Origin: Polyangiaceae bacterium
GTDB lineage: Bacteria > Myxococcota_A > Polyangia > Polyangiales > Polyangiaceae
Direction: 5' to 3'
Assembly: GCA_020846005.1 (NCBI GenBank)
Contig: JADLEQ010000025.1
Span: 1-64,000 of the forward strand
Length of the DNA stretch: 64,000 bases
The stretch's first letter is position 1, and each line of letters starts with the position of its first letter. A program made the position numbers and the translations under genes. The notes beneath the pieces were generated by a model. It was not told the origin of the DNA and searched no databases. It was given only the letters and a program-made list of their open reading frames with translations. This document shows, piece after piece, positions 5,541 through 39,196 of the stretch.

Positions 5541-6152
5541 ATGCCCTCCTACGAAGCCTTCTCGCGCGTCTACGATCTCCCCCTCGAGCGCCTGTACCGG
5601 AGCGCGCGGCGCGCCGCCGCGGAGGCGCTCGAGCTGCGCGAGGGGCACCGGGTGCTCGACGTGCCGTGCGGCACCGGCCAGAGCTTCGACGCGCTGGTGG
5701 AGCGCGTCGGATCCGGGGGCGACGTCGTCGGGCTGGACCTCAGCCCGGGCATGTTGCGCGAGGCGCGCGCTCGCGTCGCGTCGCGGGGCTGGCGCCACGT
5801 CGAGCCGCGTGAGGCCGACGCGCTGACCGTGACGGATGAGGAGCTGCCCGGCGCCTCGTTCGATCGGCTGCACGTCTTCCTCGGGATGAGCGTCTTCCCG
5901 GAGCCGGCCGCGACCTTCGCGAGGCTCTGGCGGGCGCTCCGGCCCGGCGGGCGCTGCGTCGTCGTCGACGTGCACGCGGCTCGCCCCGGCGTGCAAGGGC
6001 GCCTGGTGAACTTCGTCGCGCGCGCCGACGTCCGTCGCCGCTCCTGGGAGGCGCTCGAGGCGGTCGCTTGCGGCTTCGAGCGCCGCGCGCTGTCCTCGTC
6101 GTGGGTGCACGGCGGCGAGCTCTTCCTCGCGAGCGGCGACAAGCCGGCGTGA
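5541..6152 (+). CDS. Class I SAM-dependent methyltransferase
   Basis: 203 aa. The SAM-binding motif I is VLDVPCGTGQSFDAL (residues 38-52), followed by an acidic motif II (VVGLDLSPGML) and the post-motif region LRPGGRCVVVDV. The start chosen is ATG 5541 (MPSYEAFSRVYD). The frame is open upstream to 5391, but that part is Pro/Arg-rich and unlike the family. The 'YEAFSRVYDLPLERLYRSAR' opening is like small ubiquinone/menaquinone-type methyltransferases. The substrate is unknown. It is convergent with guaB. Confidence 0.82.
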   Translation: MPSYEAFSRVYDLPLERLYRSARRAAAEALELREGHRVLDVPCGTGQSFDALVERVGSGGDVVGLDLSPGMLREARARVASRGWRHVEPREADALTVTDEELPGASFDRLHVFLGMSVFPEPAATFARLWRALRPGGRCVVVDVHAARPGVQGRLVNFVARADVRRRSWEALEAVACGFERRALSSSWVHGGELFLASGDKPA

Positions 6153-6200
6153 GCCGGCGCCCGCGCGCGAGCGGCGGGAGGCCGCGCCGTCCCGGCGCCG

Positions 6201-29963: not shown

Positions 29964-29986
29964 TCGGGCGCGCGCTCAGCGCCCGA
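29964..29986. terminator. Hairpin between convergent genes
   Basis: TCGGGCGC (29964-29971) pairs perfectly with GCGCCCGA (29979-29986) around a 7-base loop that includes the stop codon of the minus-strand gene. It is well placed to end transcription from both sides. There is no T-run. Confidence 0.5.
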
Positions 29987-31052
29987 TCCGCGTCGCGTCG
30001 TAGCGCAGGAGCGTCCCCGAGGCCGACAGCGCGACCACGCCGCCGGCGTGGTCCGATGCGAGCGCGCGCAGCGCGAGCCAGGCCGGGCGGCGCCCGGGCA
30101 GCGCTGACGCGCTCCCGTCGGCGAGCACGCGGAGGACGCCACGGTCCGTCTGCAGGACGAGCGAGCCGTCCGGCAGCGACGCGACGCTCGAGTCGATCCG
30201 GTCCCAGCGGCGCGCGATGGACGTGATCGCGCCCGTCCCAGGATCGACCCACCACAGCTCCCCGGTGAGGCGGTGGGAGACGACCAGGCGGTCCTCCTGG
30301 ACGAACGCGAGGTCGAGGTGCTCCAAGGTGCTCGCCACAGGCGGGAGCGCCAGCCGGCGGCGCTGCTCGGGCAGCCCGTCGCTGCCCAGGCGGACGAGCT
30401 CCTGCCCGCTCGTGACGCAGTAGACCGCGCCGCGCGGATCGCTCGCGATGGGTCCGTAGACGCGGCGCGCGGCGTCCACCGGGAGCGCGGGACCGACGCT
30501 GCTGCCCGAGACGTGCAGGACGGCGCCGCCGAGGCTCACGAAGAACCCCGCCGCGCCATCACGCGCGAGGCCCGCGACGCGCGCACTCGGCGCGGGGAGC
30601 GGCAGGACGAGCGACCGGAGGGGTCGACCCTGCGCGTCGACGACGACCAGCCTCCCCGTAGCGGACGCCACGACGACGGTGGAGTCGGCCAGGGCGAGCA
30701 CGGCCTCGTGGGAGTCCAGCGGTTCGGGGCTCCGGGCGAGATCCACCACGAAGACGGCGTCCGCCGCCAGGTCGTCGGCGTTGGAGTCTGAGAGGTACGT
30801 GAGCGCGAGCGTCGCGACGAGCACCACGGCCAGCGCGCCCGCCACGCGCAGCGCCAGTCCGAGGAAGCGGCCGCCGCTCCGCGCCGCGAGCCAGATCACA
30901 GGAGCTCCGTCGGCGCCCCCCGCGGGGGCGGCCGAGCCCGCGCGCTCCACTCGCGCGCGGGTCCCGCAGTGAGGACACGTCGCCTCGCGCGCGTCCGTGC
31001 GCATTCGGAGCGGTGCCCCGCATACGGGGCACTGGACGGCGAGCGCGCTCAT
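29976..31052 (-). CDS. Zinc-ribbon, membrane-anchored propeller protein (paralogue 1)
   Basis: 358 aa. An N-terminal zinc ribbon (CPVCGAPL at 9-16 and CPHCGTRA at 26-33) is followed by a transmembrane segment (about 66-85, ALRVAGALAVVLVATLALTYL). The remaining 270 residues are short strands with Asp/Gly turns like propeller blades (VLALADSTVVVASATGRLVVVDAQGR, VASLPDGSLVLQTDRGVLRVLADG). Its start is 4 nt from the stop of a paralogue upstream. The ribbon would be cytoplasmic and the propeller exported. No catalytic site is evident. Function unknown, possibly sensing or scaffolding. Confidence 0.82.
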   Translation of the reverse strand: MSALAVQCPVCGAPLRMRTDAREATCPHCGTRARVERAGSAAPAGGADGAPVIWLAARSGGRFLGLALRVAGALAVVLVATLALTYLSDSNADDLAADAVFVVDLARSPEPLDSHEAVLALADSTVVVASATGRLVVVDAQGRPLRSLVLPLPAPSARVAGLARDGAAGFFVSLGGAVLHVSGSSVGPALPVDAARRVYGPIASDPRGAVYCVTSGQELVRLGSDGLPEQRRRLALPPVASTLEHLDLAFVQEDRLVVSHRLTGELWWVDPGTGAITSIARRWDRIDSSVASLPDGSLVLQTDRGVLRVLADGSASALPGRRPAWLALRALASDHAGGVVALSASGTLLRYDATRIGR

Positions 31053-31056
31053 CGGA

Positions 31057-32142
31057 TCACCACCGGGAGCTGGCGCGATCCCACCGCGCGAGGTGGCCGA
31101 GCTGACCGGCGACGATCAGCCCGCCGTCCGGCCCCAGCGTGACGTCGCTCACCCATCCCCAGCGGTCCCTCCGTGCCTTCGGGCCTTCGCGCTCGGCGAA
31201 GTCGGGCCCGAACAGTCGGAGCCGGTCGTAGTGCCCTACGACCACCGAGCCGTCCTCGAGCAGCCCCAAGCCGCGGTACTCCCCCGGGCCGGCCGGCGCG
31301 TGCCTGCGCACGAGCTCGCCGTTCTGCGCGAAGACGTAGATCGCCGACGCCTCGGCGGGCGTCATCCAGATCCGACCCCCGGCGTCGACGGCGAGGCTGC
31401 CGCAGCCGTGGTGGCGTGCCTCGCGCGACGTCATCGGGGTGTTCGACCGCGAGCGAACCCCGCCTCGGGGGTCGAGCAGCACCAGGTCGTCGCGGCTCGT
31501 CATCGCCCACAGCGTGCCGCCCTGGCCCATGGCCAGGCACCGCGGGTGCTCCCCCTCGGGCAACGGCCGGAGTCGTTCGATCACGCGCAGCTCGGTCGTC
31601 GAGACGACCAGGAGCTCGTCCCCGTGGCTCACGTACACGCGGCCCCGTCCGTCGCCTGCGATGCCGTGCGTGCTCCCCCACCCGTGACGATCTGCGGGAG
31701 CGGGTGGCGTGCGCGGCAGCTCGATCGAGCCGCGCCATGCACCCCGCGCGTCGATCGCGCACAGCCGATCCCACCGGCACGCGAGCCAGAGGCTGCCATC
31801 GGGGAGCGCCGCGACGCGCCCCACCCCGAGGAGCGTCGGGACCGGGGCCGGGTGGACGTCGCCGATGTGGACGACTCGATCGGCGTCGTCGCGGAGGGAG
31901 AGCTCCTCGAGCAGCAACCCCGCGCCAACGAGCAGCGCGATCCCGGCGACGAGCGCCCCGAGGACGCGCCCCACGTGCGGCGACGAGGATCCCGGGTGTC
32001 GCGCCTCGTCGGCCGGCGCCGACCGCGCGGGCGGCTCGGTGACCGCCCCACAGAACCTGCATCGGAACGACCGCCCTGCGTCGCTGTCCCACTCGGTCGG
32101 CGCGCCGCAGCCGGCGCAGGGGGTGACGACCAGTCGAGCCAA
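31057..32142 (-). CDS. Zinc-ribbon, membrane-anchored propeller protein (paralogue 2)
   Basis: 361 aa with the same plan as its downstream neighbour: CAGCGAPT (9-16) and CRFCGAVT (28-35) zinc ribbon, a transmembrane segment (about 59-79, VLGALVAGIALLVGAGLLLEE), then blades such as RVAALPDGSLWLACRWDRL, GIAGDGRGRVYVSHGDELLVV and SLAVDAGGRIWMTPAEAS. These resemble NHL/SMP-30-like propellers. The start is TTG 32142, supported by TAGCGT 9 nt upstream. The alternative start further in would lose the first zinc knuckle. The pair looks like a tandem duplication that has since diverged. Confidence 0.82.
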   Translation of the reverse strand: MARLVVTPCAGCGAPTEWDSDAGRSFRCRFCGAVTEPPARSAPADEARHPGSSSPHVGRVLGALVAGIALLVGAGLLLEELSLRDDADRVVHIGDVHPAPVPTLLGVGRVAALPDGSLWLACRWDRLCAIDARGAWRGSIELPRTPPAPADRHGWGSTHGIAGDGRGRVYVSHGDELLVVSTTELRVIERLRPLPEGEHPRCLAMGQGGTLWAMTSRDDLVLLDPRGGVRSRSNTPMTSREARHHGCGSLAVDAGGRIWMTPAEASAIYVFAQNGELVRRHAPAGPGEYRGLGLLEDGSVVVGHYDRLRLFGPDFAEREGPKARRDRWGWVSDVTLGPDGGLIVAGQLGHLARWDRASSRW

Positions 32143-32210: not shown

Positions 32211-32594
32211 TCACCCCGGGGTCGCGCACGCCTCCGAGCACCGCCCGGTGAGGCGCAGGCGGTTGGCCGCGAACCGCTCGTAGCCGAAGTCCAGCGCCTG
32301 CCGGACCCCGGGGAGCCGGCTCATCGCGACGAGCGCACCGAACCCGACCGCGCCATACAGCCGGCGGAACACCTCGACCCCCTCGATCCACGTACCGTCG
32401 GACAGCCGCCCCTGGATACGCCGCATCAGCGCCTCTTGCGTGGAGCCGATCGAGGCCGCGTCGAACTCCGGCGCCGCGATGTCCGTGAACCGGATGCGAC
32501 CCGCGCGATCGAGCCGCCGGAGCATGCGAATCTCCCGCGCGCAGAGCGGACACTCGCCGTCGAAGAAGACCTCCACATCGTGCTGAGCTGCCAT
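32211..32594 (-). CDS. DCC-family thiol-disulfide oxidoreductase-like protein (DUF393)
   Basis: 127 aa. [16 protein letters not shown] at residues 10-25 is the family's D-x-x-CPxC signature, followed by FTDIAAPEF and the conserved helix region [21 protein letters not shown] proteins have a thioredoxin-like redox motif (CPLC) but their partners are poorly known. It is divergent from the seven-gene radical SAM operon with 116 bp between. A functional link to that operon's redox chemistry is possible but unproven. Confidence 0.88.
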
Positions 32595-32710: not shown

Positions 32711-33049
32711 ATGGTGACGGAGCAGGAAGGCGTCGAGCTGCTCGCCGGGATCTTCCGGGGAGCGGGCCTCGAGATCGTGGAGAGCTTCGATTTCCGCGAG
32801 GGCGGGGTGGTCGTCTCGCTCGATGGCTTCGATCCCGTGGCGCGGATCGGCTTCGAGTACATCACGACCGAGGCGGGAGACCGCGAGGAGCTGACCCCGG
32901 CCGTGCTCGCCGAGCTCGAGCTCCGGATGCGCGCCGAGGAGCTGTTTCTGTTCCTGGTGGACGAAGGCGACATCCCGGACCTCGCCGCGCTCGCCGCGGC
33001 GGCGCGCGGCTTCCTCGCCCTGCTGCGCGATCGGGGCAGGCTGCCGTGA
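32711..33049 (+). CDS. Uncharacterised 112-aa protein, first gene of the operon
   Basis: 112 aa, acidic and soluble, without a signal peptide. It has an alternating helix/strand pattern: GVELLAGIFRGAG, GGVVVSLDGFDPVARIGFEYIT, then EELTPAVLAELELRMRAEELFLFLVDE. No family is recognised, and it does not look like a modified-peptide precursor (no core rich in Cys, Ser, Thr or Gly at the C-terminus). It starts seven plus-strand genes that overlap at every junction. Its stop overlaps the next GTG start by 4 nt (GTGA), which implies coupled translation. Confidence 0.78.
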   Translation: MVTEQEGVELLAGIFRGAGLEIVESFDFREGGVVVSLDGFDPVARIGFEYITTEAGDREELTPAVLAELELRMRAEELFLFLVDEGDIPDLAALAAAARGFLALLRDRGRLP

Positions 33050-34353
33050 GCGCGTACGGCGTCGCGCAATTCCTCCAGGCGGCCGCGCACCAGCGGCAGG
33101 CCCTGCTCCACGAGGCGGGCGTCGCAGAGCACTACGGCTCCATCCACCGCCAGCGGCGCGCCGAGCTGGAGCGGGCGCATGTACAGGCGGTCGCCGACGT
33201 AGGGGTCGTGCTCCTGCGGGAGCTCACGCCAGAGTGGCTGGACTACGCGGTCCGAACGACCGGGCTCGCCGCCCTCGCCGCCGAGAACCCGATCTCGATG
33301 CGCGAGGCCGAGCGCCAGAAGCGCCGGCAGCGCCTGGCGCAGATCGAGGCCGATCCACGCTTCGCCCAGCGCGAGCTGCTCCGCCACCCGCGCACCGGTT
33401 CTCTGCCGCGCGGCATCGCCGAGATGCACGAGCACCTGGCACCGATGGAGGCGATCCTCAACGCGTGCCAGCACCCGCGCCTCGATCGGCTCCTGCAGTC
33501 AGGGTACGGCACCCCGTCGTACGAGACGGGGTTCTGGCGGCTCAGCTACTACGCCGACTGGAAGGCCGGCGACGAGATCCTGGCGCGATTCCCCGACCGA
33601 CAGTTCTTCTCTCAGGTGCGGGACGAGTATCTCCGCGCGTGGCACGCCCTCGGGCCACTCCGAGCCGAGCTCGAGCGCCTGCGAGCGGAGGTGGCGGCGG
33701 GCGAGGCGCTCGAGCGTGAACACGCCGAGCTCGGCGCCGGCCTCGCGACGCTCGACGAGCGCTGGCTCGGCCACGTTCGCCAGCGCCTCGCGGCGTTCCT
33801 GACCGAGTGCCCGCCGGAGTCCATCGGCCCGCGGCTCTCCGGGCAGCCGGAGCTCGAACTCGCGTACAAGCGTCTGCTCGGCGTCGCGGCGAAGACTCGT
33901 TACCTCGACGGCATCCACGCTCACTATGTCGCCGAGGCGCAGCGCGAGATCACGCTCGCCATCAACCGCCTCGACCGCGACGTGGGCAAGGCGCAGCGCC
34001 CGAAGAACGCGCGCATGACGTTCCCGGCCGCGACCTTCCAGAAGCGCTTCCGCGACCGTGCGCCTGCGTACGGCAAGCGCTGGGCACGGTTCGAGAAGAC
34101 GTACGGCACCGTCCAGGGGTTCCAGGCCTACCACCTCGCCGCGCTCGGCGCGGGCTTCCTCTGGTGGGATCTGATGACGGACGGGCGCATCCTCGGGGAC
34201 TTCCTGCCGGAGGTGCGGTCGTTCCGAGACTCCCACCCGGGGTATCGCTGGCAGGCTCCGGCGGACGCGGCGGACGAGGACGACCTGCTCGCCGCGGCGA
34301 CGGCCGCCGGCGTCCCCGACGATCCGCTCCGCCCGCGGGGCGACTACTCGTGA
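33046..34353 (+). CDS. Uncharacterised 435-aa protein, second gene of the operon
   Basis: 435 aa, soluble and rich in Arg, Glu and aromatic residues. It opens with a predicted long helix (AAAHQRQALLHEAG, RQRRAELERAHVQAVADV). A middle region, WRLSYYADWKAGDEILARF, is followed by a coiled-coil-like segment (LGPLRAELERLRAEVAAGEALEREHAEL). The C-terminal part has FRDRAPAYGKRWARFEKTYG and GFLWWDLMTDGRIL. There is no signal peptide and no known motif. The start is GTG 33046, overlapping the previous stop. It could be a substrate, a scaffold or a novel enzyme of the operon; the sequence does not say which. Confidence 0.8.
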   Translation: MSAYGVAQFLQAAAHQRQALLHEAGVAEHYGSIHRQRRAELERAHVQAVADVGVVLLRELTPEWLDYAVRTTGLAALAAENPISMREAERQKRRQRLAQIEADPRFAQRELLRHPRTGSLPRGIAEMHEHLAPMEAILNACQHPRLDRLLQSGYGTPSYETGFWRLSYYADWKAGDEILARFPDRQFFSQVRDEYLRAWHALGPLRAELERLRAEVAAGEALEREHAELGAGLATLDERWLGHVRQRLAAFLTECPPESIGPRLSGQPELELAYKRLLGVAAKTRYLDGIHAHYVAEAQREITLAINRLDRDVGKAQRPKNARMTFPAATFQKRFRDRAPAYGKRWARFEKTYGTVQGFQAYHLAALGAGFLWWDLMTDGRILGDFLPEVRSFRDSHPGYRWQAPADAADEDDLLAAATAAGVPDDPLRPRGDYS

Positions 34354-35813
34354 GCCGCTCGCTCCGCGTGGTGGCCTACGCGGTGAACGGCGCCGGCGCC
34401 GGACACCTCGTCCGGCTGGTGGCGATCGCGCGCTGGCTCCGCCGGTACGCCGCGTGGTCCGGCGTGCGCCTGGAGGTGTTCTTCCTCACCTCGAGCGAGG
34501 CGGATGGCCTCCCGCTCTCGGAGCGCTTCGCCTCGTTCAAGCTGCCGTCCAAGACGATGGTCGCTGAGGCGCGGATCGACAAGACGACCTACCTCGCGCT
34601 CGCCAAGCAGTGGGTGTGGCAGTCGATCGCGCTCCTGCGGCCGGACCTCTTCGTGGTCGACACCTTCCCGGCCGGCGCGTTCGGTGAGCTCGTGAGCGCG
34701 CTCGACCTCTGCCGGCGGCGCGCGATCGTCTACCGCCCGATGCTCGAGGAGCACGCGCGGCGCCCCGAGGTGCAGGCGCTGCTCCCGCTGTACGATCGCA
34801 TCCTGATCCCGGAGAGCGAAGATCACGGCGGGGTGCTGGTGCCCGCGGCGGCGCGCGGCCGGTCCCGGTTCGTCGGCCCCGTCGCCGTGCGCGACCGCGT
34901 GGAGCTGCCGAGCCGTGAGGAGTCGCGCGCGCGCCTCGGGCTCCCCGCCGAAGCGCGCGTCGCCTACGTGTCCGCTGGGGGCGGGGGGGACGCGCACGCG
35001 GGGCGCCAGCTCGCGGCGGGGGTCGAGGCGCTGCTCGCGGTCGATCCGGAGCTCCGGGTGGTGCTCGGGGCCGGCCCGCTCCATCGGGGTCGCCTGCCGC
35101 GCGGCCCACGCGTCACGCCGCTCGTGCACGAGGTCGCCGCGGAGCTCGCGCCCGCCTTCGACCTCGCCGTGAGCGCGGCCGGGTACAACGCGTTCGTCGA
35201 GCTGATGCTGGCCGGCGTGCCGACGGTCTTCGTCCCGCAGCCCAAGATCGCGGACGATCAGGCGGCACGAGCACTCCGCGCGGTCCGCGCCGGGGCCGCG
35301 CGCGTCGTCGAGGATGGAGCGCCGGCGGCCGAGCTCGCCGCCGCCGCTCGCGCGCTGCTCGAGCCCGCGGCCGCCCACGCCGCGTCGCTCGCGGCGCGCG
35401 CGCTCGTGCCGAGGAGCTGCGCCCGCGTCGCCGCTGCTGAGCTCCTGCGGCTCTGCCTCCCCGCGCCCGAGGTGGATCGCGCGGAGGCGGCCGTGACCGA
35501 CGCGTTGCTCGGGCGCGCGGGCGCGCTCGGCGTCCCCGAGGAGCTCCTCGTCGAGCTCATGCACGCGCTCGACGGCGACGGCGGGCACGCCTCCCCGGCC
35601 CGGGAGCTCGGATCCCTGCTCCGCGCTGCCGGCGCGATCGTCGAGCTCGCGCGCGCGGAAGGAGCCCCGCTCGAGACGCTGGGCGCTGCCGCGCACGACG
35701 CTGTGCGGCGCCTGCGCGACGCCTCCGTCGAGGACCGGCGCTCGGCGATCGAGCGCGTCGTCCTCCGCGAACGCGGAGCCGCGGGAGGGGCAGGGGAGGC
35801 GCGGCCGTGCTGA
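34350..35813 (+). CDS. GT-B glycosyltransferase-like protein (MurG/GT28 type)
   Basis: 487 aa. The N-terminus VVAYAVNGAGAGHLVRLVAIARWLRR is the glycine-rich acceptor-side motif of MurG-like GT-B enzymes. Around 273-305, VSAAGYNAFVELMLAGVPTVFVPQPK matches the donor-binding 'S-x-G-x-x-x-x-E...G-x-P' block, followed by DDQAARA. The last 100 residues are Ala/Glu/Leu-rich helices beyond a normal GT-B. GTG 34350 overlaps the previous stop by 4 nt. The acceptor and sugar are unknown. Placed between an unknown protein and three radical SAM enzymes, it probably decorates the same product. Confidence 0.82.
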   Translation: MSRSLRVVAYAVNGAGAGHLVRLVAIARWLRRYAAWSGVRLEVFFLTSSEADGLPLSERFASFKLPSKTMVAEARIDKTTYLALAKQWVWQSIALLRPDLFVVDTFPAGAFGELVSALDLCRRRAIVYRPMLEEHARRPEVQALLPLYDRILIPESEDHGGVLVPAAARGRSRFVGPVAVRDRVELPSREESRARLGLPAEARVAYVSAGGGGDAHAGRQLAAGVEALLAVDPELRVVLGAGPLHRGRLPRGPRVTPLVHEVAAELAPAFDLAVSAAGYNAFVELMLAGVPTVFVPQPKIADDQAARALRAVRAGAARVVEDGAPAAELAAAARALLEPAAAHAASLAARALVPRSCARVAAAELLRLCLPAPEVDRAEAAVTDALLGRAGALGVPEELLVELMHALDGDGGHASPARELGSLLRAAGAIVELARAEGAPLETLGAAAHDAVRRLRDASVEDRRSAIERVVLRERGAAGGAGEARPC

Positions 35814-36883
35814 GCGACGAACGCTCGCGCGTCCTCCAGGGCATCGAGCGGGGCGCGCCGTTCCACGGTCCGGAGACGATCCACGTCGACGTGACCAACG
35901 CCTGCCACGCGAGCTGCGTCACCTGCTGGGATCACTCGCCGCTGCTGCGCGTCGCGCGCGCCCCCGAGTGGAAGCGCCGACGGATGGCCCCGGAGCGCCT
36001 CGAGGCGCTCCTCGACGACGCCTCGACGCTGGGCGGCCTGCGCAAGATCATCCTGAGCGGGATGGGCGAGCCGTTCGGCCACCCCGACATCGAGCGCCTG
36101 ATCCAGGCGGTGAAGTCGCGCGGCCTGCACCTGACGGTGATCACCCACCTGACGCTCGCCGATCCGGCGCGCGTGGTGGAGCTCGGGGTCGATCAGCTGC
36201 TCGTCGGTGTCCACGCCGCGAGCGAGGCCGCCTATCGCGCGTTCCATCCTGGTTTCCGCGGCGACGAGTGGCGGCGCCTCGTCGCCGCGCTCGGGGTGTT
36301 CCGCGCCGCGGGGCGTCGGTTCAAGCACGTGCAGGTCATCTGCAGCACGAACGCGCACGAGCTCCCCGAGATGGTGCGCTTCGCCGACGAGCACCGCGCG
36401 CACGGGATCACCTTCAAGCTGGCGAGCCTGCGGGACGGCACGGAGGCTCGTCGGATCACCGAGGACCAGCGCGCGACGCTCGTCGCGGACGGCGTCCCCC
36501 GGGCGCGGGCGCTCTCGGCAGAGCTCGGCGTCGCGACGAACCTGGACGTCTTCGCCCGCCAGCTCGCTGCGGGCGGCGCGGAGACGGCGCCGATCTCGGA
36601 GATCGGCTGCTTCATCGGGTACACGTACGCGCGCGTCACCGTCGACGGTACGGTGCTCTACTGCTGCGATCCGGCGATCGTGGTCGGCCACCTCGACGAG
36701 GCGAGCTTCAGCGAGCTGTGGTCCGGGCCCCGGTGGGCCGAGCTCCGCGCCCGCTTGCGCCGTGGCGAGTACCTCCCGCGGTGCGGCCAGTGCGGGAAGC
36801 TCGCGCAGAACGTCGAGCTGCGTGAGCGCTTCACGCAGAGATACGGCGAGGACCGGGCGCGCGCCGTGACGGGGGCGCGGTGA
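35807..36883 (+). CDS. Radical SAM enzyme with SPASM-like C-terminus (RS1)
   Basis: 358 aa. The [4Fe-4S] triad is Cys33-Cys37-Cys40 (NACHASCVTCW). LSGMGEPFGHPDI is the GGEP-equivalent SAM site. After the barrel come further Cys residues: GCFIGYTYARVTVDGTVLYCCDP and LPRCGQCGKL, the pattern of SPASM/twitch auxiliary clusters used in peptide or cofactor modification. GTG 35807 overlaps the glycosyltransferase stop by 7 nt and the next start overlaps this stop by 4 nt. The reaction is unknown. It is not closely similar to the next two radical SAM proteins. Confidence 0.9.
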   Translation: MLSDERSRVLQGIERGAPFHGPETIHVDVTNACHASCVTCWDHSPLLRVARAPEWKRRRMAPERLEALLDDASTLGGLRKIILSGMGEPFGHPDIERLIQAVKSRGLHLTVITHLTLADPARVVELGVDQLLVGVHAASEAAYRAFHPGFRGDEWRRLVAALGVFRAAGRRFKHVQVICSTNAHELPEMVRFADEHRAHGITFKLASLRDGTEARRITEDQRATLVADGVPRARALSAELGVATNLDVFARQLAAGGAETAPISEIGCFIGYTYARVTVDGTVLYCCDPAIVVGHLDEASFSELWSGPRWAELRARLRRGEYLPRCGQCGKLAQNVELRERFTQRYGEDRARAVTGAR

Positions 36884-37728
36884 GCCGCCAGCCGACGGTC
36901 GAGTGGCAGGTGTGCGGGACCTGCAACTACGACTGCAGCTACTGCATCCAGAGCCGGAAGTACCGGGTGGGGCACCCATCGGAGGCCGAGATCGATCGGT
37001 TCCTCGAGTTCTACGCGGGGCTCCCCGGGGGGTGGGAGATCAAGATGACGGGCGGCGAGCCGTTCGCGTTCCGCGGGTTCCTCGCGCGGATCGTCCCCGG
37101 GCTCGTCGAGAGGACGCCCCACCGCGTCTCGGTCCTCACCAACCTCTCCGCGCCCGTGACGGCGCTCGACCGCTTCGCCGAGCTCACCCGGGGGCGGCTC
37201 GAGATCGTGAGCGCGAGCCTCCACCTGGAGCAGGTGGACGTGGTGGACTTCCGAGACAAGGCGCTCCGGCTCCGCGAGCGGATCGACGCGCGCGCGCGCC
37301 TGATCGTCAACGCGGTGCTCGTCCCCGGTCGCCTGGAGGCCGTGGAGCGCGCGAAGGAGCTCCTCGAGGCCGTTGGACTGCGCCTGTACCCGCAGGTGAT
37401 GAAGACGAAGCATGGGGTCTCCGCGTACGGAGGCGCCGACACGCAGCGGCTGCTTCAGCTGCTCGGCCCCGCGCCGACCTCTCGCACGGCCAACGTCGCG
37501 CCGAGCCACCACGGTCGCGCCTGCTGGGCCGGAGCGGAGTACCTGGTGGTGACGCAGGCGGGTGACGCCTGGCGCTGCCGAACCGCCCGGCGCGCGGGCG
37601 AGGGCCACCTGGGCAACGTCCTCGAGGGGACGGCCCGGCTCGCGGGCGGGCCGTCGCCGTGCCCCTACACGATCTGCCCGTGCGCCGTGCCGGAGAACCG
37701 CGGGATGATCGAGGGGCGCCCGGCGTGA
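36880..37728 (+). CDS. Radical SAM enzyme (RS2), sister of RS3
   Basis: 282 aa, short for the superfamily. Cluster Cys15-Cys19-Cys22 (GTCNYDCSYC), then KMTGGEPFAFRGF as the SAM site. The barrel includes VSASLHLEQVD. The C-terminus has CWAGAEYLVVTQAGDAWRC, then a PCPYTICPCAVPENRGM block whose Cys could hold an auxiliary cluster. This C-terminal plan (CWAG...C...PC..-C-C-VP..RGM) recurs in the next gene. GTG 36880 overlaps the RS1 stop. The substrate is unknown. Confidence 0.9.
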   Translation: MSRQPTVEWQVCGTCNYDCSYCIQSRKYRVGHPSEAEIDRFLEFYAGLPGGWEIKMTGGEPFAFRGFLARIVPGLVERTPHRVSVLTNLSAPVTALDRFAELTRGRLEIVSASLHLEQVDVVDFRDKALRLRERIDARARLIVNAVLVPGRLEAVERAKELLEAVGLRLYPQVMKTKHGVSAYGGADTQRLLQLLGPAPTSRTANVAPSHHGRACWAGAEYLVVTQAGDAWRCRTARRAGEGHLGNVLEGTARLAGGPSPCPYTICPCAVPENRGMIEGRPA

Positions 37729-38675
37729 CGACGCCTGCTGGCGCGCCGCCCCGCCCCGCCGAGGGCGTCGTCGCGTGGAACGTCGGCACGGCGTGCAACT
37801 ATCGCTGCTCGTACTGCACGCAGCGGGGGAAGGCGGACCGCGGGCGCTGGGCCGAGGACCTCCCCGCGTTCCTCCGCGGGTTCGCGCGCCTCGAGGGGGA
37901 CTGGGAGGTGAAGCTCTCGGGCGGCGAGCCCTTTCAGCACCCGCGGATCGTCGACCTCGTCCGTGGGCTCGCCGCGCTCGGGCGGCGGGTGTCGGTCGTG
38001 ACGAACTTCTCGGTGTCCGAGGCGGTCCTCGAGCGGTTCGTCGACGCGGTGGGCGATCGCGCGGGGACGTTCTCGGCGAGCCTCCACCTCGAGTACGTGC
38101 GTGACCCCGCCGCGTTCGCTGCGCGCGCGGCGCGCCTGCGGCGCGAGCTCCGCGCGCGCGCCGGGCGGTCGTCGCCGCCGCCGGGCGTCAACGTCACGGT
38201 CGTGGCGACGCGCGCCGCGCTCGAGCGGCTCTCCGCGCTGGATGCGTGCTTCGCCGCGGAGGGCCTCGCGCTCAAGCTGCAGCCCGAGCGTGAGGATGGG
38301 CGCCGCATCGCCTACACGCCGGCGGAGCTCGCGATGATCGCGGACCGGGGCGGGCACCAGGGCCTCGGCGACGTCACCCACGGGTTCTTCGGGCGGCCCT
38401 GCTGGGCGGGCGCCAGGTTCTTCATCCTCGATCACCGGGGCGAGGCGTATCGCTGCTACCCGGCGCGCCGGGCCGTGCTGGCGCCGCTGCGCGCCTCCGG
38501 CGGACGGATCGCCGATCCGGAGCGCGAGCGCACGCTGGGCCGGCTGGGCTCCTTCCTGGATCCGGCGTTTCGGCTCCCCGGAGCGCCCGCGCCGTGCTTG
38601 CATCGGAGCTGCTACTGCTCCGTCCCGATCGCGAGAGGGATGATGGCGCGAACACTCCCCGAAGAGGTGGCATGA
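37725..38675 (+). CDS. Radical SAM enzyme (RS3), sister of RS2
   Basis: 316 aa. Cluster Cys24-Cys28-Cys31 (TACNYRCSYC), SAM site KLSGGEPFQHPRI, and SASLHLEYV matching SASLHLEQV in RS2. The C-terminus has CWAGARFFILDHRGEAYRC and then a PCLHRSCYCSVPIARGM block, clearly paralogous to RS2. GTG 37725 overlaps the RS2 stop by 4 nt (GTGA), and this gene's stop is overlapped by the lipoprotein ATG. Tandem sister enzymes suggest two similar steps on one substrate, or one heteromeric enzyme. Confidence 0.9.
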   Translation: MTTPAGAPPRPAEGVVAWNVGTACNYRCSYCTQRGKADRGRWAEDLPAFLRGFARLEGDWEVKLSGGEPFQHPRIVDLVRGLAALGRRVSVVTNFSVSEAVLERFVDAVGDRAGTFSASLHLEYVRDPAAFAARAARLRRELRARAGRSSPPPGVNVTVVATRAALERLSALDACFAAEGLALKLQPEREDGRRIAYTPAELAMIADRGGHQGLGDVTHGFFGRPCWAGARFFILDHRGEAYRCYPARRAVLAPLRASGGRIADPERERTLGRLGSFLDPAFRLPGAPAPCLHRSCYCSVPIARGMMARTLPEEVA

Positions 38676-39196
38676 AGTACACGACGTTCCGGGCGCTGGT
38701 CGTCGCTGGCGTGGTCTTCGCCGCGCTGGGCAGCTGCGCCACCTGCGTGGTGGTCCTGGGCTCGACCGATTCGCCCCCGCCGCCGAGCACCACCGCGCCG
38801 GGTGCGCCGGCGACCACGATCGGCGCGTCCATGGCGGGTGGCGGCGCGCCCAGCGTCACCGCGACACCCGGCGCGCCGCCGGCGTCGGTGGGCGCGAAGG
38901 AACTCGCGGTGTCCGCCTTCGAGCGCGACGTGCTCGCGGTCGCGGCTCGCCCGCTGTCCGGCGACAAGGGCAAGGACGCGCTCGGCCCGCGGGGGCCGAA
39001 GGTGAACCTGTACCGCGACGCGGGCGAGCCGAAGGTGAACCGTGCGAAGGTGGATCTCGATCGCGACGAGCGTTGGGACGAGAAGTGGACGTTCGAGCGC
39101 GCGGGCGGCGTGAAGCGCCAGATCGCTCCTGCAGACGACGAGAGCTATACCGTGGAGTACGAGCTGGCGGGTGGGCAGTGGCGACGCACGCGGTGA
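38672..39196 (+). CDS. Small exported protein or lipoprotein, last gene of the operon
   Basis: 174 aa. An N-terminal hydrophobic segment (TFRALVVAGVVFAALGSCATCVVVLG) holds Cys residues in a weak lipobox (LGSC). It may equally be a membrane anchor. A Pro/Thr/Ala/Gly-rich linker (about 30-75) follows, then a charged domain (PKVNLYRDAGEPKVNRAKVDLDRDERWDEKWTFE) with Asp-rich, calcium-binding-like spacing. ATG 38672 overlaps the RS3 stop by 4 nt. Being translationally coupled to the radical SAM genes, it may be the operon's envelope-facing component. The function is unknown. Confidence 0.78.
   Translation: MKYTTFRALVVAGVVFAALGSCATCVVVLGSTDSPPPPSTTAPGAPATTIGASMAGGGAPSVTATPGAPPASVGAKELAVSAFERDVLAVAARPLSGDKGKDALGPRGPKVNLYRDAGEPKVNRAKVDLDRDERWDEKWTFERAGGVKRQIAPADDESYTVEYELAGGQWRRTR

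Follow-up and report, generated by a model that had tools for sequence, protein, structure and literature searches.

This work concerns a stretch of 64,000 nucleotides from a Polyangiaceae bacterium (GenBank assembly GCA_020846005.1, contig JADLEQ010000025.1, positions 1 to 64,000 of the forward strand; hereafter, the window), in which two tandem genes, RS2 and RS3, encode radical S-adenosylmethionine (SAM) enzymes displaying a conserved C-terminal cysteine block. Our results assign both proteins, with high confidence, to the Twitch type of radical SAM enzymes. Both genes lie within a series of seven genes, arranged end to end and overlapping (window 32711-39196), namely A112, B435, GT28, RS1, RS2, RS3 and lip (Table 1), and it is this wider cassette, widespread and apparently undescribed, that we consider the part worth following. 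These gene labels, as well as F5, type I and type II used below, are those of this analysis; the host assembly comprises 5.7 Mb in 119 contigs.

The cysteine block of RS2 and RS3

The original prediction, made on the window alone, described two sister radical SAM genes in tandem which share the motif SASLHLE in the barrel and, with the same spacing, a CWAG, a later single cysteine and a terminal PC-x4-C-x-C-x-VP-x-x-RGM block. Both genes and all of these motifs were recovered in the two proteins at the positions listed in Table 1. The spacing was confirmed in its first part, with 17 residues between the CWAG cysteine and the lone cysteine of both proteins; conversely, the distance from the lone cysteine to the PC block is of 27 residues in RS2 (C233-C261) and of 46 in RS3 (C244-C291). 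The latter value is due to a 19-residue insertion in the RS3 of the window, without counterpart in most other RS3, and therefore the equal spacing is true of the family and not strictly of this pair. For the family comparison, one genome-contig scan yielded 75 loci, derived from the best 80 of 247 relatives; counted without the window copies, L086 and L040, the lone cysteine is separated from the C of the CxC by 32 residues in 56 of 67 RS2, and by 32 or 33 in 52 of 53 RS3.

A pattern check identified the five C-terminal cysteines (C-x12-G-x4-C ... C-x4-C-x-C) in 70/70 RS2, a count which includes the fused open reading frame (ORF) of L086, and in 56/56 RS3. All five were invariant in the alignments of RS2 (69 rows, without the L086 fusion) and RS3 (55 rows, without the extended RS3 of L040). 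The block had also been described as departing from the standard SPASM spacing, which holds for its second half only: the SPASM/Twitch opening CX9-15GX4C is present as C-x12-G-x4-C in every one of these sequences (70/70 RS2 and 56/56 RS3), whereas the second SPASM half CX2CX5CX3C, on the Aux II side, was found in 0/69 RS2 and 0/56 RS3. The PF13186 profile scored RS2 at 15.1 bits against a gathering score of 21.5, covering positions 1-36 of 67; with E values up to 1 accepted, 36 of the 61 domains compared with this profile gave a match. The neighboring RS1 surpassed the cut-offs of both PF04055 (51.8 bits) and PF13186 (43.3 bits), and in its set of 64 sequences CX2C was present in 64/64 and CX2CX5CX3C in 0/64.

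RS2 and RS3 are paralogs with 41% identity (profile-profile E 1e-89). In a tree built from every second RS2 and RS3 sequence, leaving out L089, L095 and L101, 29 RS2 formed one supported set (98/98) and 10 type II RS2 an adjacent one (100/99), while 28 RS3 were placed apart from RS2 without a single RS3 clade being shown; the root is unsure because the bootstrap was unsettled and the outgroup branches are very long. In L086 (10019-11779), RS2 and RS3 form one ORF of 587 aa, each half of which has a separate radical SAM motif and a separate cysteine block; this ORF has one ambiguous residue near its start, and the fusion may stem from the assembly. Another protein of the radical SAM type, encoded at L025:7314-8312 on the minus strand, displays C-x12-G-x4-C together with a C-terminal C-x3-C-x3-C, a different variant of the second half.

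Comparison with known radical SAM systems

Among solved enzymes, the closest cysteine layout was that of SkfB, a sactisynthase from Bacillus subtilis (PDB 6efn). According to PMC6231123, its Twitch domain contains five cysteines in all, namely Cys333, Cys351 and those of a CX4CXC motif whose last two are Cys385 and Cys387; of these, Cys351, Cys385 and Cys387 hold a [2Fe-2S] cluster, with Cys333 about 12 Å away. The resulting arrangement, C333-x17-C351-x28-(C380)-x4-C385-x-C387, in which we deduced C380 from the CX4CXC given in that paper, differs from that of RS2, C215-x17-C233-x27-C261-x4-C266-x-C268, by one residue in one gap. The likeness thus relies on the cysteine numbers published there and on a structural alignment, in which the RS2 model (residues 1-267) was superimposed on SkfB (chain residues 25-386) with Z 17.4 and a root mean square deviation of 3.9 over 246 aligned residues. 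By sequence, the match to SkfB was limited to residues 10-75 of RS2/RS3 (E 0.0013), and a profile search with the C-terminal region did not find SkfB; moreover, RS2 and RS3 are shorter (282 and 316 aa) and are found in a different gene setting. To our knowledge, SkfB is the one solved enzyme with this layout.

A second relationship was observed with the STM4011 family (NF038073), whose profile aligned with RS2 residues 14-269 (E 9e-15) and matched 59 of 61 C-terminal domains. Neither protein reached its cut-off of 200 bits, with 54.6 bits for RS2 and 20.4 for RS3. A true member of this family, L022 from a related genome (392 bits against the cut-off of 200), carries C-x12-G-x4-C ... P-C-x4-C-x-C as RS2 and RS3 do; among open-licence papers, we found none naming STM4011 together with radical SAM.

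The RS2 model (predicted local distance difference test, pLDDT, 95.7; predicted template modeling score 0.92) had its best structural matches mostly among SPASM/Twitch enzymes, over most of its length. The best Foldseek hit was the SCIFF thioether maturase CteB (PDB 5wgg/5why; E 1e-9), whose SPASM first half could be aligned to RS2 214-254 at every residue. According to PMC6231123, two auxiliary clusters are present in CteB; RS2 and RS3 lack the second half of the motif. The top rows of VIA-align for RS2 included BlsE (Z 18.9), MoaA (17.4), SkfB (17.4), SuiB (17.1), CteB (16.6) and BtrN (15.0). BlsE and BtrN, which are radical SAM enzymes of the Twitch type from sugar and aminocyclitol pathways, resemble RS2 over the full length of the fold with 15-18% identity and in unrelated gene settings, and several of the fold matches of RS2 act on sugars or peptides. 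A relationship to viperin was considered and discarded, since RS2 matched NF038283 only at residues 5-90 (25.8 bits against 180) and the PADLOC pVip model only in its N-terminal part.

These comparisons bear on the proposal that the cysteine block defines a subfamily with a new kind of auxiliary cluster. The absence of CX2CX5CX3C from all 69 RS2 and 56 RS3 is in its favor; however, the layout is that of SkfB and of STM4011, and we consider a new cluster type very improbable. The exact alignment of these cysteines with a known subfamily had been named beforehand as the outcome that would speak against the proposal, and this is largely what was found, since the first half of the block aligns with CteB and PF13186 and the five-cysteine layout matches SkfB and the STM4011 protein. 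A distinct subfamily is nevertheless supported, as RS2 falls about 145 bits below the NF038073 cut-off and RS2 and RS3 constitute their own sets in the tree. The motif is real, but its interpretation is mostly explained by the known Twitch layout.

The serine tail and its association with GT28

The protein encoded before GT28 ended in [D/E/Y/F]-x-Ser in all 52 loci in which it was readable (in L042, L087 and L089, not counted, the contig starts at GT28), and this serine tail is probably the site modified by the gene set. B435 ended in Ser in 38/38 cases including the window, with D (32), Y (3), E (2) or F (1) as third-last residue. In type II loci the place of B435 is taken by F5, an unrelated tetratricopeptide repeat (TPR)/zinc-ribbon-like protein, which ended in D-H-S in 10 out of 10; four further loci in which BLAST did not detect B435 also had a gene ending in Ser next to GT28. 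Freshly fetched loci with GT28 in view gave [D/Y]-x-S in 18/18, among them 15/15 on previously unseen contigs, two of these being nearly identical and some overlapping ORFs in other frames being ignored as spurious. As background, a C-terminal Ser was found in 2 of 74 ORFs belonging to the other recurring families of the same loci, i.e., every family outside the cassette that is present in at least three loci, a set that may include some antisense ORFs. Within the cassette, the corresponding frequencies were 9/55 for GT28, 7/64 for RS1, 3/70 for RS2, 2/56 for RS3 and 2/51 for lip. The tail protein is not directly beside GT28 in L054, L062 and L064; in L054, two small ORFs (5562-6181) lie between B435 and GT28, otherwise neighbors, and by eye they resemble an antitoxin and a PIN-type toxin.

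The tail tracks GT28, as indicated by genomes in which the cassette is reduced. B435 was detected in 7 of 59 relatives, five of them with RS2/RS3; the other two, G011 (L214:4617-7600; A112-B435-GT28) and G007 (L215:3564-6646; GT28-B435-like), lack RS2/RS3 and keep the tail T-D-A-S. In G011, the opposite strand carries another radical SAM gene about 1.2 kb further downstream. Of the 96 genomes of the G403 family, 15 have F5, and 14 of these 15 are also the only ones with RS2; the genome with F5 and without RS2, G1261, has the order F5 (D-H-S)-GT28-RS1, after which its contig continues for only 767 bases, where no RS2 was seen. G403 also encodes a second F5-like protein with no GT28 beside it, which ends in SREQG and has no tail, and the F5 of G407 ends in E-H-S. 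Since G011, G007 and G1261 keep both elements and the F5 paralog without GT28 has no tail, the tail follows the glycosyltransferase.

These data weigh on the possibility that the peptide of the D-x-S tail is itself what the radical SAM enzymes modify, by a crosslink, epimerization or oxidation, resembling the maturation of ribosomally synthesized and post-translationally modified peptides, with the GT28 sugar added afterwards or in parallel. In its favor, the tail is conserved, short and in all probability flexible, and SkfB, the closest solved Twitch enzyme by cysteine layout, as well as many of the best fold matches (CteB, SuiB, EpeE and anSMEcpe), are peptide maturases. Nevertheless, the view that the tail alone is what these enzymes act on became less likely, because G011 and G007 keep it without RS2/RS3; the residue before the Ser is also variable in type I (n=38; A 13, L 6, F 4, V 4, I 4), and no recurrent family with a mean length below 100 aa, as expected of a precursor peptide, was found among ORFs of at least 45 aa, shorter peptides not having been searched. 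We regard this possibility as unlikely.

GT28 and the bodies of the tail proteins

GT28 matched PF04101 with 32.4 bits, over the cut-off of 22, and its profile matches MurG and UDP-glycosyltransferase (UGT) structures. It shares with these enzymes the donor-binding half, scoring 35.8 bits against the 250-bit cut-off of TIGR01133, and differs from them by an extra C-terminal part in type I. The AlphaFold2 model of B435 had a mean pLDDT of 93.5 and was confident to about residue 400, with values decreasing from 72 to 43 along the tail blocks (43-53 in the last ones), so that, according to the model, the C-terminal tail is probably disordered or flexible. B435 belongs to no Pfam family, its sequence profile gave nothing below E 0.02 against the PDB, and Foldseek returned, with a best E of 0.049, largely helical proteins and long coiled coils; B435 may nonetheless have a known fold. 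The bodies of B435 and F5 display no similarity to each other (hhalign probability 0.2%).

Two unrelated bodies with the tail alone in common could also be carriers or scaffolds, on whose C-terminal Ser a small molecule (natural product or cofactor) would be built by GT28 and edited by RS1-RS3. BlsE, MoaA, DesII and AbmM, all of them enzymes of small-molecule routes, are among the fold matches, in line with such a role. On the other hand, no release or export gene was evident, judging from the first residues, among families recurring in at least three loci, and we know of no carrier of the B435/F5 kind; this possibility is considered quite improbable.

The lip protein

The lip protein consists of an N-terminal hydrophobic anchor, a linker rich in Pro and Ala, and a single conserved domain of about 75 aa with the motifs KxKD ... 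NLY ... RxKxDxxRDxxWDEKW ... DDExY ... W; elsewhere, 1-4 domain copies were found per protein, and 8 residues were invariant in an alignment of 30 rows. In a Planctomycetota bin (L082:2859-4343), a lip relative of 495 aa has four tandem copies of the domain. The gene was present in 51 of 52 RS3 loci with enough flank and in 0 of 13 type II loci, which lack RS3 (11 of them with at least 3 kb downstream). Among 59 relatives it was present in four, all RS3 bearers, two more RS bearers stopping at a contig edge; in its own genome it is a single copy, beside RS3.

Such a distribution, together with the repeated and near-invariant Lys/Arg/Asp/Trp motifs, would be compatible with lip being the substrate of RS3, and perhaps of RS2, modified before export. 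Against this, L099 has RS3 without lip, and lip became less likely as the main substrate because type II loci have RS1/RS2 without it; further, an ordinary folded Asp-rich domain is possible, with no meaningful match found in the PDB. A role of lip as the substrate is considered unlikely.

Distribution and types of the cassette

By tblastn with the seven window proteins, type I loci have the order A112-B435-GT28-RS1-RS2-RS3-lip, not every gene being detected in each locus, and type II loci have GT28-RS1-RS2 alone of the seven, without RS3. RS3 was present in 55 loci, and A112, without matches in Pfam, NCBIfam or PADLOC, had homologs in 17 of 75. The records of the loci correspond to Myxococcota, Acidobacteria, Planctomycetota, Spirochaetes, Ozemobacteraceae, cyanobacteria of the Gloeomargaritales and Gloeobacterales, and Betaproteobacteria, among others. 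With strict cut-offs, RS2 was found in 36 of 377 sampled genomes of the phylum of the window, in 8 of 396 sampled from the phylum of L048 (a Blastocatellia bin), and in 14 of 96 sampled from the family of L100 (Hyalangium versicolor, a cultured host of the type II cassette). In the class to which the Propionivibrio bin L094 belongs, it was found in 1 of 369 genomes, namely that of L094 itself. No RS3 relative was detected in viral contigs and no RS2 match in plasmids. The cassettes can be ranked by their radical SAM steps: none, RS1, RS1-RS2 and RS1-RS2-RS3. One Rhodoferax bin has the type II cassette twice (L088/L089). Among open-licence papers, we found none on such a cassette.

Proposed mechanism

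Integrating these findings, our best explanation of the whole, in which our confidence is slightly short of even, combines Twitch enzymes bearing an auxiliary cluster, glycosylation of the tail by GT28, radical edits, and lip as a second substrate or partner. The operon and its conservation, the cysteine layout, the fold class, the conserved tail, and the associations of tail with GT28 and of lip with RS3 are directly supported by the data, whereas the auxiliary cluster, the glycosylation, the radical edits and the pairing of each enzyme with its protein are inferred. In RS2 and RS3, CX3CX2C would hold the [4Fe-4S] cluster that cleaves SAM, and the SkfB-like five-cysteine Twitch domain would very probably carry one auxiliary iron-sulfur cluster, either [2Fe-2S] or [4Fe-4S]. 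GT28 would place a sugar on the C-terminal Ser of the flexible D-x-S tail of either B435 or the type II TPR protein, and RS1, then RS2 and, in the fullest cassettes, RS3 would introduce radical edits in the sugar or the tail peptide; RS2 and RS3 would be late steps of a cassette maturing a specific protein. The lip protein, only alongside RS3, may be a second substrate or a cell-envelope partner. More specifically, and with less confidence, we tentatively propose that GT28 recognizes the D-x-Ser of either unrelated protein and attaches the sugar to the terminal Ser, that one to three Twitch enzymes edit this sugar in place, and that the fullest version also acts on lip.

Several observations argue against this explanation. 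GT28 could act on something else, and a C-terminal Ser is fairly common in A112 as well (6/18). Two genomes keep the tail in the absence of RS2/RS3, so that radical SAM enzymes do not necessarily act on it, and the structural matches of RS2 include both peptide maturases and sugar enzymes, so that the fold does not choose between them. L099 has RS3 and 9 kb downstream with no lip. Lastly, L045/L183 (about 8 kb upstream of RS1) and L186 have no GT28 or tail protein nearby, the flank of L182 being too short to judge; at these RS2/RS3 loci the set may be split or incomplete.

Gene organization in the window

The start of RS3 is likely the GTG at 37725, which overlaps the RS2 stop as GTGA; a longer ORF from 37659, adding 22 residues, was considered and not preferred. 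Outside the cassette, two adjacent genes on the minus strand (window 29976-32142) encode proteins that look alike and are possible tandem duplicates: both have a pair of CxxC motifs of zinc-ribbon type at the N-terminus and a hydrophobic segment, and the rest of the chain resembles repeats. Another minus-strand gene (window 32211-32594) encodes a small thiol-oxidoreductase-like protein with a CPLC motif; its family (F14, 3 loci) also occurs close to the cassette of L058.

Table 1. Position in the window of the genes of the cassette and of their main sequence features.
Feature	Position	Strand	Description
A112	32711..33049	+	First gene of the operon; ATG start; 112 aa; overlap with B435 is GTGA
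B435	33046..34353	+	Helical protein of 435 aa; tail ending in D-Y-S
D-Y-S codons of the B435 C-terminus (candidate acceptor site)	34342..34350	+	Tail conservation
GT28	34350..35813	+	GT-B glycosyltransferase of MurG/UGT type; extra C-terminal part
RS1	35807..36883	+	Radical SAM; SPASM/Twitch C-terminus
SPASM/Twitch region of RS1, residues 268-329	36608..36793	+	PF13186
RS2	36880..37728	+	Radical SAM, Twitch type; 282 aa; PF04055 37.9 bits (cut-off 29.5)
RS2 CX3CX2C cluster motif (C15-C22)	36922..36945	+	Invariant in the RS2 alignment
RS2 SASLHLE, residues 111-117	37210..37230	+	S111, S113 and H115 invariant in 69 rows
RS2 Twitch cysteine block, C215-x12-G228-x4-C233-x27-C261-x4-C266-x-C268	37522..37683	+	Invariant in 69 rows; SkfB spacing
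RS3	37725..38675	+	Radical SAM, Twitch type; RS2 paralog; 316 aa; PF04055 42.8 bits (cut-off 29.5)
RS3 CX3CX2C cluster motif (C24-C31)	37794..37817	+	Invariant in the RS3 alignment
RS3 SASLHLE, residues 117-123	38073..38093	+	Translation
RS3 Twitch cysteine block, C226-x17-C244-x46-C291-x4-C296-x-C298	38400..38618	+	Five Cys invariant in 55 rows; 19-residue insertion
lip	38672..39196	+	Overlap with RS3 is ATGA; family alignment

Significance

The orthologs of RS2 and RS3 would place the SkfB layout in a large family distributed across many phyla. We know of no precedent for radical SAM enzymes editing a sugar after its attachment to a protein. Furthermore, the cassette offers a test case in which a candidate acceptor of one tripeptide is common to two unrelated proteins, and its natural variants without one, two or three radical SAM steps would make the contribution of each enzyme visible in the mass spectrum of a single tail.

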